Shown piece after piece: positions 41,120 to 49,050 of a stretch of DNA of 49,637 nt; positions within the stretch are counted from its first letter, which is position 1; each line of letters opens with the position of its first letter. The position numbers and the translations under genes are program-made. The notes under the pieces were generated by a model that made no database searches, was not told the origin of the DNA, and saw only the letters and a program-made list of their open reading frames with translations. This DNA is from Actinomycetes bacterium (GTDB lineage Bacteria > Actinomycetota > Acidimicrobiia > Spongiisociales > SHLN01): NCBI GenBank assembly GCA_024638625.1, contig JAHEJY010000004.1, positions 1 through 49,637 of the forward strand. Reading direction: 5' to 3'.

Positions 41120-42016
41120 TCAATCGGCGGCCGCAGAATTGCGGGACACCACCTGCGAGGTGGGATCCGCCGGAGTTGTCCCGGTATCGTCGGCAAAGGC
41201 GGGACAAATGTCCTGGAACGAGCACCAGTCGCACAAACGGCCCGGTCTCGGGCGGAAGTCGTCGCTCCGCAGCGCCTTGGCGATCGCATCCCAGAGCGCT
41301 CGCACCTGCTTGTCCATCGCATCGAGCTGTTTGTCGTGGATATTGAGTCGATACATCGTCGGGCCGTTGAGATATAACAAACGGACTTCCTTGGGTGTAC
41401 GCCCAAGGCGTTTTCGGATCAGCAGCGCATAGATCTTGAGCGCAAAGAAGGCCGGGAGTGCATACCGCTCCGGCGGAGCCTTGCCAGTCTTGTAGTCCGT
41501 GATGATCAGATCCCCATTCGCATCTTCGTCGATGCGATCCAGAATTCCGCGCACCGCTACTCCCTCGAGTTCCTCGAGCATGTCGTACTCACAGAACATG
41601 GGGTCGATCGATCGTGGATCTTCAAGCGAGAAATAGTTCGCGAGTAGCTCCATACTCTCCAATCCCCACGCTCGCTCATCGTCGAGCGATGCGAACAGGT
41701 CGGGATACTCCTCCATACGAAGCTCTGACCAGGCCTGCCGGAACAGTTCATACAACTGCTCCGGAGATCGATCCGGCGACGGTAGCTGGAAAAGGTTCTC
41801 CAGCGCCAGGTGGGCGGCAGTGCCGCGGGCCTGATACACGGTCGAGGGCTCCGGCAGACGCTCGATGAAGCGGTATTTGAAGAGCTGGGGACATTGCTTG
41901 TAGTCACTCAAGCGGCTGGGAGACACCCGTGGCTCGATGGGCGGCCCACCGGGCGAACCAGAGGGGGTCGGATGAGCGGTGACCGAAGAGGGGGATGGAG
42001 TGGTGAGGGCTGTCAT
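41120..42016 (-). CDS. Stand-alone RecB-type (PD-(D/E)XK) nuclease with Fe-S cysteines
   Basis: 298 residues of the AddB/Cas4-like nuclease type. After a proline-rich start, the core begins SPSRLSDYKQCPQLFKYRF with C42. The nuclease motifs are GTAAHLALENLF, GILDRIDEDANGDLIITDYKTGK (the D...DxK pair), and the C-terminal CDWCSFQDIC (C262, C265, C271). The four cysteines are those of a 4Fe-4S cluster in this family. No helicase is encoded with it; the AdnA/AdnB-like genes lie 4 kb away on the other strand. The leader upstream is a tandem repeat. Confidence 0.88.
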   Translation of the reverse strand: MTALTTPSPSSVTAHPTPSGSPGGPPIEPRVSPSRLSDYKQCPQLFKYRFIERLPEPSTVYQARGTAAHLALENLFQLPSPDRSPEQLYELFRQAWSELRMEEYPDLFASLDDERAWGLESMELLANYFSLEDPRSIDPMFCEYDMLEELEGVAVRGILDRIDEDANGDLIITDYKTGKAPPERYALPAFFALKIYALLIRKRLGRTPKEVRLLYLNGPTMYRLNIHDKQLDAMDKQVRALWDAIAKALRSDDFRPRPGRLCDWCSFQDICPAFADDTGTTPADPTSQVVSRNSAAAD

Positions 42017-42054: not shown

Positions 42055-42199
42055 CTTACGTTTCATGGTTCTTACGTTTCATGTTGTTTCTCGGCTGGTT
42101 CGTTCACGACTGGTTCGTTCACGACTGGTTCGTTCACGACTGGTTCGTTCACGACTGGTTCGTTCATGACTGGTTCGTTCATGACTGGTTCGTTCACGG
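42055..42199 (-). repeat. Tandem repeats (16 bp x2, 15 bp x7) in the leader of the RecB-type nuclease gene
   Basis: Two copies of CTTACGTTTCATGGTT-like 16-mers occupy 42055-42086. Seven copies of CTGGTTCGTTCACGA occupy 42095-42199 with single changes (CATGA twice, CACGG last). A 15-base unit gives the peptide repeat RLVRS on one frame, but there is no supporting start or gene context. A -10-like TATAGA on the - strand at 42216-42221 would put the whole array in the 5' leader of the nuclease mRNA. Confidence 0.88.
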
Positions 42200-42215
42200 C
42201 TGTTGCCTAGGTTCA

Positions 42216-42221: not shown

Positions 42222-42486
42222 CGCACTTTACGCCATCAGAGTGACACGTTTGTAATTCTCCCGCAAGAGGCCGTCGGCGCACGCCCGGTACGCTGCCAAA
42301 ACCACCCGTCGTCTCGTTCCCATCTGGTGGGAACATGATGGAAGCGATATGACGCCACATGTGCGAAAAGTGGCTCTAGATTGCCGAAAATCAGACCCGC
42401 GGGCGTGAGAAATGGGATCAAGAACTCGAAACCAGATGAGGCGCGAAAACTATGTCTTGTTCGCGAAATCTGTCGAGCGATCTAGC

Positions 42487-42516
42487 TTGACTCCCCTGGG
42501 CCGACCCTCGTATGTT
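42487..42516 (+). promoter_or_regulatory. Sigma-70-type promoter of a structured RNA
   Basis: TTGACT (42487-42492), an 18-base spacer, and TATGTT (42511-42516). The expected start, about 7 bases on, is at the first base of the GCACTCG hairpin (42523). Both boxes are close to consensus. Confidence 0.6.
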
Positions 42517-42522
42517 CGCAAA

Positions 42523-42832
42523 GCACTCGCATGTGGACCCCACATCGAGTGCCCCGTCGGAGGTGATGGGGCACCGACCCTGGTCGGTCCGCCAATGCCG
42601 CAGACGGAGTGGGCTTCGAACCGGAGGAATCCGGATGAACCTCCCGCCAAGGTTCATGAGAAGCCGGGCGGCGTCGCCATAGCGGCCGGGCAGGTCTCAG
42701 GACCCCGGGCTGATCTGACGACAAGCGCCAACATGAGCGCCGCAAGGCGCCGGCCCGGATGCATCCTCCGAGGGGGTGTCCGGGGGCAAAACCCCGAGAG
42801 GGCGTTCTTCGGAGCGGTCACTCGGGGTTTTT
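42523..42832 (+). ncRNA. Putative 310-nt structured RNA upstream of the ferredoxin-NADP reductase-like gene
   Basis: Between a good promoter and a terminator, the sequence folds into many local hairpins. GCACTCG-C-ATGTGG pairs with CCACAT-CGAGTGC (42523-42552). ACCGACC-CT-GGTCGGT is at 42573-42588. GGCTTC (42612-42617) pairs with GAAGCC (42660-42665) to close a three-way junction holding CCGGA-GGAA-TCCGG (42621-42634, GNRA loop) and an 8-bp ATGAACCT/AGGTTCAT stem (42635-42657). GCGCC-GCAA-GGCGC (42737-42750) is another GNRA hairpin. No frame in this region is protein-like. I could not match it to RNase P RNA, tmRNA, SRP RNA or a known riboswitch. It could be an independent small RNA or a leader that controls the gene starting at 42929. 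Confidence 0.6.
42788..42832 (+). terminator. Rho-independent terminator of the + strand RNA
   Basis: AAACCCCGAG pairs with CTCGGGGTTTTT around an inner GCG-TTCTTCGGA-GCG arm, and ends in five U. It is the same design as the terminator of the - strand RNA at 45229-45281. Confidence 0.8.
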
Positions 42833-42858
42833 GCATGTCTGGACACATGTGCATGCAA
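42831..42858. promoter_or_regulatory. Palindrome between the RNA terminator and the reductase gene
   Basis: TTGCATG (42831-42837) and CATGCAA (42852-42858) are inverted repeats 14 bases apart; the inner CATGT/ACATG pair is an alternative. The site overlaps the end of the terminator U-tract. It could be a protein-binding site or an alternative RNA fold. Confidence 0.4.
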
Positions 42859-44739: not shown

Positions 44740-45102
44740 ATGGATATTCGTCTAAGCCTGGTCGCGCTCGACTGTCCCGATCCTCTGGCACTCGCCGGGT
44801 TCTATCGCGATCTGACCGGCTGGCCCGTCGGTCATGTGAGCGACGACTGGGTCGAACTGGATGCAGGCGACGGCGTGACCATCGCATGCCAAAAAGTAGA
44901 GGACTTCTCACCGCCGGTGTGGCCCGGGTCCCAGCACCCCCAACAGCTCCACCTGGATTTCGATGTTGACGACCTGGATGAGGGCGAAGCCCATGTACTC
45001 AAAGTTGGGGCCATCAAGACTGATGAACAACCCAAGCCTCAATCCTGGCGTGTGTTTTTGGATCCCGCCGGCCACCCCTTCTGTCTCGTCCTAGCCGATT
45101 AG
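44740..45102 (+). CDS. Glyoxalase/VOC superfamily protein
   Basis: 120 residues, a single VOC module pair: LSLVALDCPDPLALAGFYRDLTGWPVGHVSDDWVELDAG, then QQLHLDFDVDDLDEGEAHVLKVGA and WRVFLDPAGHPFCLVL. This is the actinobacterial VOC subtype with DPAGHPFCL. Metal ligands and substrate cannot be assigned. It starts 2 bases after the reductase stop, so it is co-transcribed with that gene and ends shortly before the repeat element and the convergent RNA terminator. Confidence 0.88.
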   Translation: MDIRLSLVALDCPDPLALAGFYRDLTGWPVGHVSDDWVELDAGDGVTIACQKVEDFSPPVWPGSQHPQQLHLDFDVDDLDEGEAHVLKVGAIKTDEQPKPQSWRVFLDPAGHPFCLVLAD

Positions 45103-45112
45103 ACGTGTTATT

Positions 45113-45210
45113 CAAGGCATGTTATTCATGGCATGCGCAGAGTCTTAGAGCCCCTTTGCGTCAAGTGGAGTTGCGCAGCAACTCCCAAGGAACCCGCAGG
45201 GTTCCCGCCG
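45113..45210 (-). repeat. Second copy of the composite palindromic repeat
   Basis: Read on the - strand this has the same parts in the same order as the cluster after rpmB: a GGGAACCCTGCGGGTTCC hairpin, GGAGTTGC-TGC-GCAACTCC, ACTTGACGCAAAGGGGCT, and an ending like CTCTGCGCATGCCAT. It lies between the ends of the VOC gene (+) and the - strand RNA. Short ATTCA(A/T)GGCATG repeats follow at 45111-45135. Confidence 0.85.
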
Positions 45211-45227
45211 CCGACAACCAACACGCG

Positions 45228-45959
45228 CAAAAACCCCGGGCTGACAGTCATCTCCGAAGAGATGTCCGCCCTCTCGGGGTTCTTGCCGGCCCTGCCCACT
45301 CCGGTCCCAACGCTTCGCAGTGGTCCGGTCGTTCACCCGAAGGTGAGCGTCCGGTACTCCGAAGAGCCGGCTCCGCAGCTTTCTGCAGCGCCCTGGCTCC
45401 GTCACCGTTCCTGACTCAACAGGCACCGATTGCTGCCGGTCTCTCGACCAGCCACTCCCGGTTCGGCTCGAGTGCCAAACCCAAAGTCACGTATTCTCGT
45501 CGGTCCTTCCCCGAAGGGTCGGGCCGTCTCGAAGTTTGCAACTCCGGTACCGAAGCAACGTCCGTCCACTGCATCCTGGCTGCGTCGTGCAACGTTTCCG
45601 TCGCTACGCGGCCCTTCAACAACAGCCTTCTGAGGCTCCGGTTGCCTGGAATGGTCCCAAGTCTTGCGACCCGCTTCCATGCCGGGCCGGGAACTTCCTC
45701 GGCTATTCCCGCACCTCCCGATTTTTCCCCTTGCGGTTCAAATTCGTTCGGTAAAAGAGGCCCTGGAAGTGCCCTCGCCTTCCAAAGTCCTGCAGATCCC
45801 TCCGAGTCACCCGTTAAGACAAGCTCTTTGGTCCCTGCCTGACCGGTCATCCGTTGTCGCCTTCCGTTTTACCGGCGTGACACGTCACCGAAGTGGCATG
45901 TCACAAAAGCGACGGGACGACCAAAGGTCGGCCGCTGTCCGGGATCACTCCCGATCAGC
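45228..45959 (-). ncRNA. Putative ~730-nt structured RNA, - strand
   Basis: This 1-kb gap has no credible protein. From a good promoter (45966-45994) the - strand begins with CGCTG-AT-CGGGA-GTGA-TCCCG-GA-CAGCG (45933-45960), then CGACC-TTT-GGTCG. Next is GTGACATG/CGTGTCAC around CAC-TTCG-GTG (45877-45904). CCAAAG (45826-45831) can pair with CTTTGG (45782-45787). CTGGTC-GAGA-GACCGG is at 45436-45451, TCACC-TTCG-GGTGA at 45333-45346, and a CTGCAG-AAAG-CTGCGG hairpin lies near 45380. The region ends at an intrinsic terminator (45229-45281). Many UUCG and GNRA loops are typical of large folded RNAs. I see none of the conserved boxes of RNase P RNA, tmRNA, SRP RNA or group II domain V. Confidence 0.6.
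45229..45281 (-). terminator. Rho-independent terminator of the - strand RNA
   Basis: On the - strand AACCCCGAGAGGGCG pairs through to GCCCGGGGTTTTT, with a CATCTC-TTCG-GAGATG inner hairpin. The outer stem, the GAGAGGGCG 5' arm and the U-tract match the + strand RNA's terminator. Confidence 0.82.
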
Positions 45960-45965
45960 GTCAGA

Positions 45966-45994
45966 ACAATACGCCGACCTAACCCCCCGGTCAA
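45966..45994 (-). promoter_or_regulatory. Sigma-70-type promoter of the - strand RNA
   Basis: TTGACC (45994-45989), a 17-base spacer, and TATTGT (45971-45966) on the - strand. The predicted start is near 45959, at the base of the first hairpin. The 46000-46125 interval beyond it, upstream of the adnA-like gene, holds a TATCA/TGATA inverted repeat but no gene. Confidence 0.65.
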
Positions 45995-46125
45995 ACGTCA
46001 CGGCTGTTTAGTTTTCGCGCTCTACAACCTTGTTTCGCGACCGCCCGGAGTGCCTTTTTATCACTCTTTTCGAATGATAGGTCGGCTCGGAAATCCTGTC
46101 ATATCGCACGGCTAGCTTCACAACC

Positions 46126-49050
46126 ATGGCGACCATAGAAGTGCATCCCGGGCGCTGGGATGATGCGATTGCCGATACCGACGGACCGCAGATCGTTGTA
46201 GGAGGGCCTGGAACGGGCAAGACCGAATTCCTCGTGAGGCGCGCCTCCTACCTGATCGAGCGTGGCACGGATCCATCGGCAATCGCAATACTCGGCTTCT
46301 CGCGGCGAGGGGCGGCTGGAATTCGTGATCGAATCGAGGCAAGGCTCGATGAGACCACCGCAGGCATTTCAGCATCTACGTATCACTCGCTGGCGATGAG
46401 GATCCTCGAATCGCATGGCAACTCGGCAGGCGAACCACCGGCGTTGCTCACTGCGCCTGAGCAAGTTGCGTTCGTCGCTGATCTTCTAGCCGCAGAAGAT
46501 CCTGCGAACTGGCCTGCCGCCTATCGGCCGATTCTGCAATCGTCGAGATTCGCCCAGGAGGTCACCGACTTCTTGCTGCGCTGCGCCGAGCAGAGAATCG
46601 GGCCAACCGAAGTCGCGGCATTCGAACGCGATGACTGGAAAGGGCTTCCCGGCTTCTTCGAGAACTATCTCACAAGCTTGGAAGAGGCCGGACGCCTTGA
46701 CTACGGATCGCTCATCGTCCAGGCGGTTGACCTTCTCGACGATCCGATCGTGGCGGAGGCGCTGTCGGAGCAGTTTCAATACGTGCTGGCGGACGAATAC
46801 CAGGACACATCCCATGTTCAGGCTCGCTTCCTCCAGGCACTGGCACGGCATCACCGGAATCTCACCGCAGCTGCCGACCCCTATCAATCCGTCTACAGCT
46901 TTCGGGGAACGGATCTCGCGAACGTTGCCCGGTTTCCCGAGGAGTTCAGAGACGCCGACGGTCGGCCGGCGCGGCGGATCGTGTTGCCGACCTCATTCCG
47001 CGTGCCGGGCGAAATCCTGCGTGCTGCCGAATCGTTGACGACGAACCTGAACCTGCCGGGGGCAGCAGGTCCCGTCGAAGGGGTCGCGAGCGCGGGCCGC
47101 GTCGACGCCCACCGGTTCGACCAGGCGACCGAGGAAGCCGAGTGGATAGCTCGAGAAATCGAGCGAACCCACGTCGTTGATGGCACCGCGTATCAGGACA
47201 TCGCCGTGTTTGTGAGAACAAAGAAGCGTTTCATGTCCGAGTTGTCCCGAGCGCTCGAGCGCCGGGGCATCCCACACAATCGGCCGGATTCCCGCCTCGT
47301 CGACCATCCCGCCGTCCGGATATTGTTCGATCTCGTCACGGCCGCAACCGCCACGGGTGCGGATCAGGATCGGGCCCTTCGCCGGCTCGCACTGGGACCA
47401 CTTCTCGGACTTCCGCCAGGCGAGTTTTACCGGATTTCCCACGAGCAAGGCACCCGCGGTTGGATCAACGTGCTCGGTGAGCACAGCCCTGGCGGAGCGG
47501 CCATCGCAGGATTGATCTCGAACCCGGCGTGGGCGACGACCATGTCGGCAGCAGAAGGTCTCTGGCACATGTGGGAATCCCTACCCCAGGTCGTTGACGT
47601 CGCCAACGATCCGCAGAGACAGAACGAGCGTTTGGGTTGGTCCTCCATCAGCCAGGTACTGGGTCGCCAGTTCGAACGTGACGAAACCGTGACGCTGCAG
47701 CAATACCTCGGCTGGACAGAGAAAGACGATTTCGAGGCCGACCCTTTGCTTCGTCATCAATCGAGTCGCGTTCCAGAGGTGACCCTGACCTCCCTTCATC
47801 AAGCCAAGGGTCTCGAATTCGATACCGTCTTCATTGCAGATGCCGTCGAGGGAGTGTTCCCCGATTTGAGAGCGCGAGAATCGCTTCTGGGCTCGCGACA
47901 TCTGTCCTCATCGCTGCCTGCCGATGTTGTCCAATACCGCCGGTTCCGACTTCAGGAAGAAGCCCGGCTGGCATACACAGCCATGACCCGCGCTTCCCGG
48001 CGTGTGATCTGGACAGCGACCTCCGCAGGTGACGACTTCCGGCCCGGGGGCCCCAGCCGGTTTCTCGATCGGCTCGGCATCCCGGTTGATCGTCCGCCAG
48101 ACAGGATGCTGCCGGTTTCGGTGCTCGAAGGAGAGGCCTGGTTGCGGAGAATCGCAGCCGACCCCGGGGCGGGGATTGCTGCGAGATCGGCGGCCATCGA
48201 ACATTTGGCCAGTGGCCAGGCATGGGGCGGTCGGGATCCCCTTCGCATTGCCGGAGTTCTGCGTCGTGGCTCGAATAGGGGGATCACTACCCCAGGCAAG
48301 CTTCGCCTCTCTCCCAGCCAGGCCGACAGCTATGCCCGCTGCCCCCGTCAGTACGCCCTGGAAAGGCGTCTGCGATTCTCGGATGGTCCGACGGTACACC
48401 TCGCCTTGGGAAACGTCGTGCATCAGGTGATTCATCAGACCGATGTACATCACCCTGATCCCGTCGTCGAAGATGCGCTGACAACCCTGGATGATCGTTG
48501 GGACCCGGCCGACTTTGGCGGACCGCCCTGGGCTGACGCCTGGTATCTGCGCGCCCGTCATATGCTCGAAAACCTCTACAAACATCGCAACCGGAATCAT
48601 GAGGTGGTTGAGTCCGAGTACGACGTCACGCTGGATGCCGGTGGAGTGCAGTGGAGTGGTTCAGTCGATCGTATCGAACGTCGCGGTTCGCAACTCTGGA
48701 TCGTCGATTTCAAGACGTCGAAAACGCCCGCCCGGGCAGACGAAGCCGCCCGATCGATCCAGCTTGGCTTCTACGTTCTGGCCACGCAACAAGACCCGGG
48801 TTTGTCGGCGTTGGGAGAAATCACGGGAGCCGAGCTCTGGTATCCAGCCGTCCCGCAGAAGAAGCAACCCTTTGCGACCCGCCCGTTCAACATGTCGTTT
48901 CTTCCCCAGGTTCGCCAGACGATGTCTGAGCTTGCAGCCGATGTCGAGGCGGAGCGCTGGGATCCGGTGCCGGGAGAGGCCTGTCGCCACTGCACCGTGC
49001 GATCGTCGTGCCCCGCGGTTCCGGAAGGCCAGGAGGCCTATGCCGGATGA
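46126..49050 (+). CDS. AdnA-like UvrD-family helicase with C-terminal Fe-S nuclease
   Basis: 974 residues. A superfamily 1 helicase with Walker A GGPGTGKT at 26-33, VLADEYQDTSHVQARF (motif II), YQSVYSFRGTD, and LTSLHQAKGLEFDTVFI followed by RLAYTAMTRASRRVIW. The C-terminal 230 residues are a RecB-type nuclease: LSPSQADSYARCPRQYAL, GSVDRIERRGSQLWIVDFKTSK, and CRHCTVRSSCPAV, giving four cysteines for a 4Fe-4S cluster. A second UvrD-like gene starts 12 bases after its stop. Paired helicase-nucleases are AdnA/AdnB, the actinobacterial end-resection machine. By order the first gene corresponds to AdnA; this is inferred from arrangement and domain pattern. Confidence 0.9.
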   Translation: MATIEVHPGRWDDAIADTDGPQIVVGGPGTGKTEFLVRRASYLIERGTDPSAIAILGFSRRGAAGIRDRIEARLDETTAGISASTYHSLAMRILESHGNSAGEPPALLTAPEQVAFVADLLAAEDPANWPAAYRPILQSSRFAQEVTDFLLRCAEQRIGPTEVAAFERDDWKGLPGFFENYLTSLEEAGRLDYGSLIVQAVDLLDDPIVAEALSEQFQYVLADEYQDTSHVQARFLQALARHHRNLTAAADPYQSVYSFRGTDLANVARFPEEFRDADGRPARRIVLPTSFRVPGEILRAAESLTTNLNLPGAAGPVEGVASAGRVDAHRFDQATEEAEWIAREIERTHVVDGTAYQDIAVFVRTKKRFMSELSRALERRGIPHNRPDSRLVDHPAVRILFDLVTAATATGADQDRALRRLALGPLLGLPPGEFYRISHEQGTRGWINVLGEHSPGGAAIAGLISNPAWATTMSAAEGLWHMWESLPQVVDVANDPQRQNERLGWSSISQVLGRQFERDETVTLQQYLGWTEKDDFEADPLLRHQSSRVPEVTLTSLHQAKGLEFDTVFIADAVEGVFPDLRARESLLGSRHLSSSLPADVVQYRRFRLQEEARLAYTAMTRASRRVIWTATSAGDDFRPGGPSRFLDRLGIPVDRPPDRMLPVSVLEGEAWLRRIAADPGAGIAARSAAIEHLASGQAWGGRDPLRIAGVLRRGSNRGITTPGKLRLSPSQADSYARCPRQYALERRLRFSDGPTVHLALGNVVHQVIHQTDVHHPDPVVEDALTTLDDRWDPADFGGPPWADAWYLRARHMLENLYKHRNRNHEVVESEYDVTLDAGGVQWSGSVDRIERRGSQLWIVDFKTSKTPARADEAARSIQLGFYVLATQQDPGLSALGEITGAELWYPAVPQKKQPFATRPFNMSFLPQVRQTMSELAADVEAERWDPVPGEACRHCTVRSSCPAVPEGQEAYAG

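Follow-up and report, generated by a model that had tools for sequence, protein, structure and literature searches.

One of the larger gaps left in bacterial molecular biology concerns large structured RNAs whose role is unknown. Two of them, GOLLD and ROOL, are carried by phages or prophages, in many cases close to tRNA islands. The CsrB/CsrC and RsmX/Y/Z systems rely on two co-regulated sponge RNAs, which have an upstream activator-type site and a variable number of hairpins. OLE, GOLLD and ROOL form homo-oligomeric, ordered three-dimensional folds (PMC12286853). In Actinobacteria, 6S RNA is missing, and its known counterpart is Ms1, an RNA of ~300 nt that shows synteny with HAD hydrolase and oxidoreductase genes (PMC9130861).

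The RNA described here lies in a window of 49,637 nucleotides (the whole stretch of DNA that was analysed, from contig JAHEJY010000004.1 of an actinomycete of the class Acidimicrobiia). It resembles OLE, GOLLD and ROOL in the size of its long type, in the density of stable hairpins, in the possession of its own promoter and terminator and in its unknown function, but it has no match in Rfam, is chromosomal, vertically inherited within one order, paired and as short as ~150 nt in some genomes, and is associated neither with tRNA islands nor with phage genes. The likeness to these RNAs drawn in an earlier, sequence-only reading of the window goes no further than size and tetraloop density. Their models give no match, and the genomic setting differs: throughout the order the RNA occupies a fixed chromosomal locus beside repair genes. 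A phage or plasmid origin of the window RNA was considered and rejected, no blastn match being obtained in either collection.

With CsrB/CsrC and RsmX/Y/Z the RNAs have in common a co-regulated pair, a shared upstream site, variable hairpins and a presumed binding of protein, whereas their loops are GNRA and UUCG and not exposed GGA motifs. A CsrA sponge is not a satisfactory explanation. CsrA (PF02599) was found in none of the eight genomes of the window's family and in only 23 of the 138 genomes of the order (several genomes are incomplete), and since it went undetected in the family and in 115 of the 138 genomes, it is excluded as the general partner. Like 6S RNA and Ms1, the RNA is an independent structured RNA that would act in trans, but the models of 6S RNA match neither the window nor 20 homologous loci, the fold and neighbours are different, and there are usually two copies per genome. 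The synteny of Ms1 is not met, the neighbours being a RecB-like nuclease, AdnAB-like helicases and a bPH_2 protein; an oxidoreductase gene does lie near the second RNA of the window, without a HAD gene.

A cmscan search of the window region with Rfam 15, the check that the sequence-only reading had proposed, returned no match at E values up to 10, and none was obtained for the 20 homologous loci at E values up to 1. When the window and 33 related loci were searched at gathering and permissive thresholds, the only matches were tRNAs elsewhere. In agreement with the earlier statement that the conserved parts of RNase P, tmRNA and SRP RNA and domain V of group II introns were not recognisable, the models of these RNAs and introns, and of group I introns, are unmatched. 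The designation as an unclassified structured RNA is thus upheld at the window and at the 20 homologues, and compensatory changes support the structure. A text search of the literature, limited to open-licence papers, revealed neither a structured RNA described for this group nor a CGCGAAA operator at dnaA; an earlier description outside that literature is possible.

The RNA genes of the window

The interval 45103-46125, which is flanked by a glyoxalase-like gene, whose 3′ end is at 45102, and a UvrD-type helicase gene, whose 5′ end is at 46126, contains no convincing gene and corresponds to the coding-free kilobase noted previously. Its (-) strand carries a putative RNA gene of ~735 nt, with a predicted +1 at about 45960 and an end at about 45229. 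The near-consensus promoter that had been proposed is indeed present at 45994..45966, as is the intrinsic terminator, a hairpin followed by UUUUU; the latter is conserved in a congener, although a generic terminator scan did not flag it and it was recognised instead through this conservation. The 5′ hairpin that had been called perfect exists but contains imperfections. Although its main features were all in place, the earlier description overlooked a second member of the family within the window. Both RNA genes and their context are as follows.

45224..45960, (-) strand: structured non-coding RNA, long type, supported by its fold, by a congener copy with identical limits and by the absence of an Rfam match
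45934..45959, (-) strand: 5′ hairpin of the long RNA, GCUGAUCGGGAGUGAUCCCGGACAGC, with one compensated pair in the congener
45229..45285, (-) strand: terminator hairpin with UUUUU tail, bearing the family signature CCCCGAGAGGG...CCGGGGUUUUU, common to the second RNA and relatives
45966..45994, (-) strand: promoter core, -35 TTGACC at 45989-45994, -10 TATTGT at 45966-45971, 17-nt spacer
46013..46039, (-) strand: tandem operator CGCGAAA-N13-CGCGAAA, placed 18 nt ahead of TTGAC, restricted to the order and exact in spacing
42522..42833, (+) strand: second RNA, short type, with the same operator and promoter layout and terminator signature as the long RNA
42783..42833, (+) strand: terminator hairpin of the second RNA, from the terminator signature and the covariance model R1 (see below)
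42487..42516, (+) strand: promoter core of the second RNA, TTGACT at 42487-42492, TATGTT at 42511-42516
42442..42468, (+) strand: tandem operator of the second RNA, CGCGAAA-N13-CGCGAAA, from a pattern search
41120..42016, (-) strand: PD-(D/E)XK RecB-like nuclease gene, context (Pfam PF12705, E 9.6e-38; synteny)
46126..49050, (+) strand: gene for a UvrD-type helicase fused to a PD-(D/E)XK nuclease (AdnAB-like), context (Pfam PF00580 and PF12705; synteny)

The (-) strand of the long RNA gene folds at -351.5 kcal/mol, as compared with -293.0 ± 7.7 in dinucleotide shuffles (z = -7.6), and the (+) strand exceeds its shuffles less strongly (z = -5.0). In line with the search of related genomes that the earlier reading had proposed, a homologue with the same limits and compensatory changes was found in G001, the one other genome of the genus; it is 82% identical, is accompanied by the same promoter and terminator and lies upstream of the same helicase gene. 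The conserved unit runs from promoter to terminator and the two sequences diverge beyond it, which establishes the boundaries at the level of sequence; transcription itself is inferred. The consensus structure of the two sequences comprises 228 pairs, of which nine show double compensatory changes and none is broken, a level of compensation reached by only one of 500 shuffles, and the alignment folds at -281 kcal/mol as compared with -212 ± 8 when its columns are shuffled. A conserved reading frame, which had been named as grounds for abandoning the RNA model, is excluded by the gap lengths (12, 1, 1, 2 and 14) and by the even distribution of the 111 substitutions over the codon positions (35/37/39), and a protein gene at this position is thereby ruled out. 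The possible long-range pairing of CCAAAG with CTTTGG did not withstand the same comparison, because CUUUGG is replaced by CGUUGG in the congener and CCAAAG is unchanged, so that one pair is lost and the pairing is unsupported.

The second RNA has a homologue in the congener that is 89% identical, and its fold gives z = -4.3. The signature CGCGAAA-N13-CGCGAAA-N18-TTGAC is met at 46039..45990 on the (-) strand and at 42442..42491 on the (+) strand, and the terminator signature CCCCGAGAGGG... is present in both RNAs. The locus of the window is rearranged: the second RNA adjoins the nuclease gene, the long RNA adjoins the helicase gene, from which it diverges, and the two RNAs face each other across oxidoreductase and glyoxalase genes. 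About seven copies of a 15-bp tandem repeat, CTGGTTCGTTCACGA, occupy 42095-42202, in the interval that separates the nuclease gene from the second RNA's operator.

Distribution and anatomy of the RNA family

The family was found across the order through the shared promoter and operator signature. Paired CGCGAAA boxes with the same spacing before TTGAC were present at the long RNA of the window, at its copy in the congener and at a weak match from a distant genome of another family. Elsewhere in the order, weak blastn matches were mostly due to chance; those to the terminator were the exception and led to the family. With up to two mismatches, the pattern CGCGAAACA-N11-CGCGAAA-N18-TTGAC occurs in 62 of the 138 genomes of the order and in one of the 257 others of the class, and the exact boxes alone, CGCGAAA-N13-CGCGAAA, occur in 120 of the 138. 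The reversed pattern, used as a control in both operator searches, was absent from every genome. A scan of 84,980 species genomes yielded 62 stretches, mainly from Acidimicrobiia or unclassified actinobacterial bins, together with a scatter of single matches under unrelated names. At nearly all sites examined, a TANNNT-like -10 element comes after 17-19 nt, and most of them could be assigned a recognisable terminator. The genomes that carry the RNA are apparently metagenome bins.

R1, a covariance model of the terminator hairpin built from 32 sequences, matches 116 of the 138 genomes of the order, with exactly two matches in about 65 of them (hand count). Among 397 sampled genomes of the phylum, its matches at E ≤1e-6 are confined to the class, and those above 50 bits are all in the order. 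The single match in the window's genome is the second RNA (E 4e-6); at E 1e-4 or better the model scores only this copy at 42522-42833 and not the long RNA, probably because the inner stem of the latter is longer. Outside the order, one other genus of the class, g89 of family f23 (for example G344, G364 and G214) gives weak to moderate matches, with E values down to 8e-9, which are possibly remote members of the family.

In most genomes, the two RNA genes lie close together in one orientation and are divergent from the gene for a PD-(D/E)XK RecB-like nuclease. Beyond the nuclease gene come UvrD/AdnAB-like helicase genes and a gene resembling that of glutamate dehydrogenase (assigned from the sequence without a domain scan), and a bPH_2-domain gene is often found downstream of the RNA pair. 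As judged from these genome comparisons, the RNA family is vertically inherited within one order of Acidimicrobiia, usually as a pair at one locus. In G036, which is assembled as one contig, R1 matches at 2085389-2085441 and 2085877-2085929. A location at the replication origin was considered and rejected, because in this genome of ~2.2 Mb dnaA is at 1.358 Mb and the pair at 2.085 Mb, neither beside dnaA nor exactly opposite to it.

The lengths of the family members range from about 150 nt to more than 700 nt; they rest on an automatic terminator search, and some of the longest values may overrun the true end. The minimal members of ~150 nt consist of four hairpins and are found at the same locus as the longer ones. 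Of the 639 hairpin loops predicted in 68 RNAs, 452 (~70%) are GNRA or UNCG loops, as compared with 16-19 of about 440 loops (3-4%) in shuffled sequences. Pairs altered on both sides are in excess in three sets: 23 were counted in five long RNAs of f1, the window's family (3′ domain; 8.1 in shuffles), 16 in the minimal 150-nt RNAs (six sequences; 5.8 in shuffles) and, as double-change cells, 21 in the terminator hairpins (32 sequences; 4.6 in shuffles), and in each case none of 500 shuffles reached the observed value.

The bodies of the RNAs cannot be aligned between genera, and beyond the promoter and operator the window RNA shares by sequence just the terminator region. Within family f1, a multi-helix 3′ domain is highly conserved. 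The 5′ arm of the terminator, CCCCGAGAGGG, is more constant than pairing alone would demand: an A in it faces any of the four bases, and all 32 sequences keep one and the same G-U pair. An unpaired motif common to the whole order was not seen; conservation is instead of helices, of tetraloops and of the terminator arm. Family f8 has a constant CCCGCU loop in its minimal RNAs. The short RNAs of families f1 and f5 share a three-way-junction core, which was recognised only by eye and without a model. No long-range pairing or pseudoknot was established. On this evidence, the RNAs almost certainly constitute an undescribed family with a conserved promoter, operator and terminator and with structural covariation.

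The shared operator and the possible role of the RNA pair

The exact operator was verified upstream of dnaA at eight loci (L178, L182, L191, L192, L193, L197, L210 and L218), and it also precedes nrdJ at five loci (L179, L190, L205, L209 and L211) and ftsK at one (L206), Pfam and NCBIfam having served to identify these genes. Family f7 contributes eight genomes with full site lists; 26 of their 33 sites are at RNA loci, dnaA, nrdJ or ftsK, and the other seven are without an assignment. The nrdJ-type class II ribonucleotide reductase of L205 matches Hint domain models inside the protein, which suggests that it carries an intein. The presence of the operator before these genes is thus a direct observation in relatives; the genome of the window itself has no exact N13 operator at dnaA or nrdJ, only half-sites at other spacings, so that the replication link in this species is drawn by analogy and its coupling to replication is an inference.

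Each RNA gene would be read from a sigma-70-type promoter equipped with two direct CGCGAAA operator sites, and the product would be a trans-acting chain of GC-rich hairpins, mostly capped by GNRA or UUCG loops, that ends in the conserved terminator hairpin. Because the same tandem operator precedes dnaA and nrdJ in relatives, it is proposed that the RNA is made together with the replication programme. Such replication-linked regulation is fairly probable, although no transcript data are available and control by one factor is inferred. The RNA may then serve as a stable scaffold or sponge for a protein, in which the number of hairpins is free to grow or shrink. Protein binding is inferred from the absence of an order-wide unpaired stretch, the free gain and loss of hairpins and the duplication, as in CsrB/RsmZ-type RNAs; since no partner is known, this element falls a little short of an even chance. 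The reading as a whole, a replication-coupled pair of stable, multi-hairpin, protein-binding RNAs, is nevertheless held with slightly more belief than doubt. A more specific form, in which the pair is an inherent effector of a replication regulon, expressed along with dnaA, the B12-dependent ribonucleotide reductase and ftsK, is controlled by an undescribed CGCGAAA-binding regulator, has a dedicated protein partner and acts on replication, repair or segregation, is tentative and on balance doubtful.

The long type of ~735 nt, with its very high tetraloop density, the conserved multi-helix 3′ domain of family f1 and the two co-regulated copies could also be understood if the RNA formed a particle without protein, that is, if it took on a defined three-dimensional shape, perhaps by homo- or hetero-oligomerisation of the paired RNAs, and acted as a cage or platform in the manner of OLE, ROOL and GOLLD, since ornate RNAs are known to oligomerise (PMC12286853). 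Four-hairpin members of 150 nt at the same locus are too small and simple for a cage, which argues against this as the shared function, and the lack of any established long-range pairing or pseudoknot and the failure of the body to be conserved between genera point the same way; the explanation is unlikely for the family, and a particle remains possible for the long forms. That an exposed stretch pairs with one or more mRNAs, for example of replication or repair genes, is likewise improbable: a feed-forward pair would be plausible given the operator that relatives also have before dnaA and nrdJ, and the CCCGCU loop of the minimal f8 RNAs is a candidate for such a stretch, but conservation across the order rests in helices, tetraloops and the terminator arm and not in any unpaired motif seen. 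A regulator of RNA polymerase, replacing 6S RNA or Ms1 in function, would be in keeping with the strong independent promoter, the structure and the single locus, and with the occurrence of Ms1 in Actinobacteria, which are without 6S RNA (PMC9130861). There is only a slim prospect that this is correct, because cmscan gives no 6S match, the fold is a chain of hairpins and not one long bulged hairpin, the neighbours are not the HAD hydrolase and oxidoreductase pair of Ms1, and the operator is common to replication genes.

It can also be asked whether the transcript matters at all. The operator is strictly conserved and the RNA bodies change freely, as would be expected if the tandem operators titrated a replication regulator at the DNA level and the RNA were a by-product. 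Helix-preserving compensatory changes, the conserved -10 element and terminator and the preference of the fold for the (-) strand are, however, evidence of selection on the transcript, and make this explanation very improbable. Chance folding of GC-rich DNA, or the spread of hairpin repeats, might be suspected because high-GC DNA folds well on both strands, but it is refuted by the exact boundaries, the covariation, the fixed promoter spacing, the copy number of mostly two and the vertical synteny, and can be virtually dismissed.

If the more specific form given above, the effector of a replication regulon, is true, the RNAs represent a new class of chromosomal RNA that is order-wide, elastic in length, tetraloop-capped and paired. 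The family also suggests that this uncultured order has a replication regulator not yet described. The exact operator ties the RNAs to genes of known function, dnaA, nrdJ and ftsK, and so offers a testable entry into their role. Because more than a hundred homologues of very different lengths occupy one locus, a minimal functional core of ~150 nt can be read from them.

The operator is also found at loci of other kinds. In genus g45 of family f8 (G105-G110), there are 3-10 exact sites per genome, many in the form CTAnCCCGCGAAA, and R1 detects no terminator in these genomes; the regulon seems to have expanded there and the RNA to have been lost or changed. At L167-L170, from four genomes of the window's family, the operator is followed by a conserved stretch of ~100 nt, CACAGGCGGAGU...GGGCGCCUCCCUCGGGGCGCCCUUU, which ends in a terminator-like hairpin, is divergent from an HtpX-like protease gene and has no match in Rfam; it is possibly a third small RNA under the same control. 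At L171-L173, which come from three genomes of that family, a short conserved reading frame follows the operator; its product begins with approximately M(L/F)EA(L/I)VVI(G/A)LFVALVLAGGRS.
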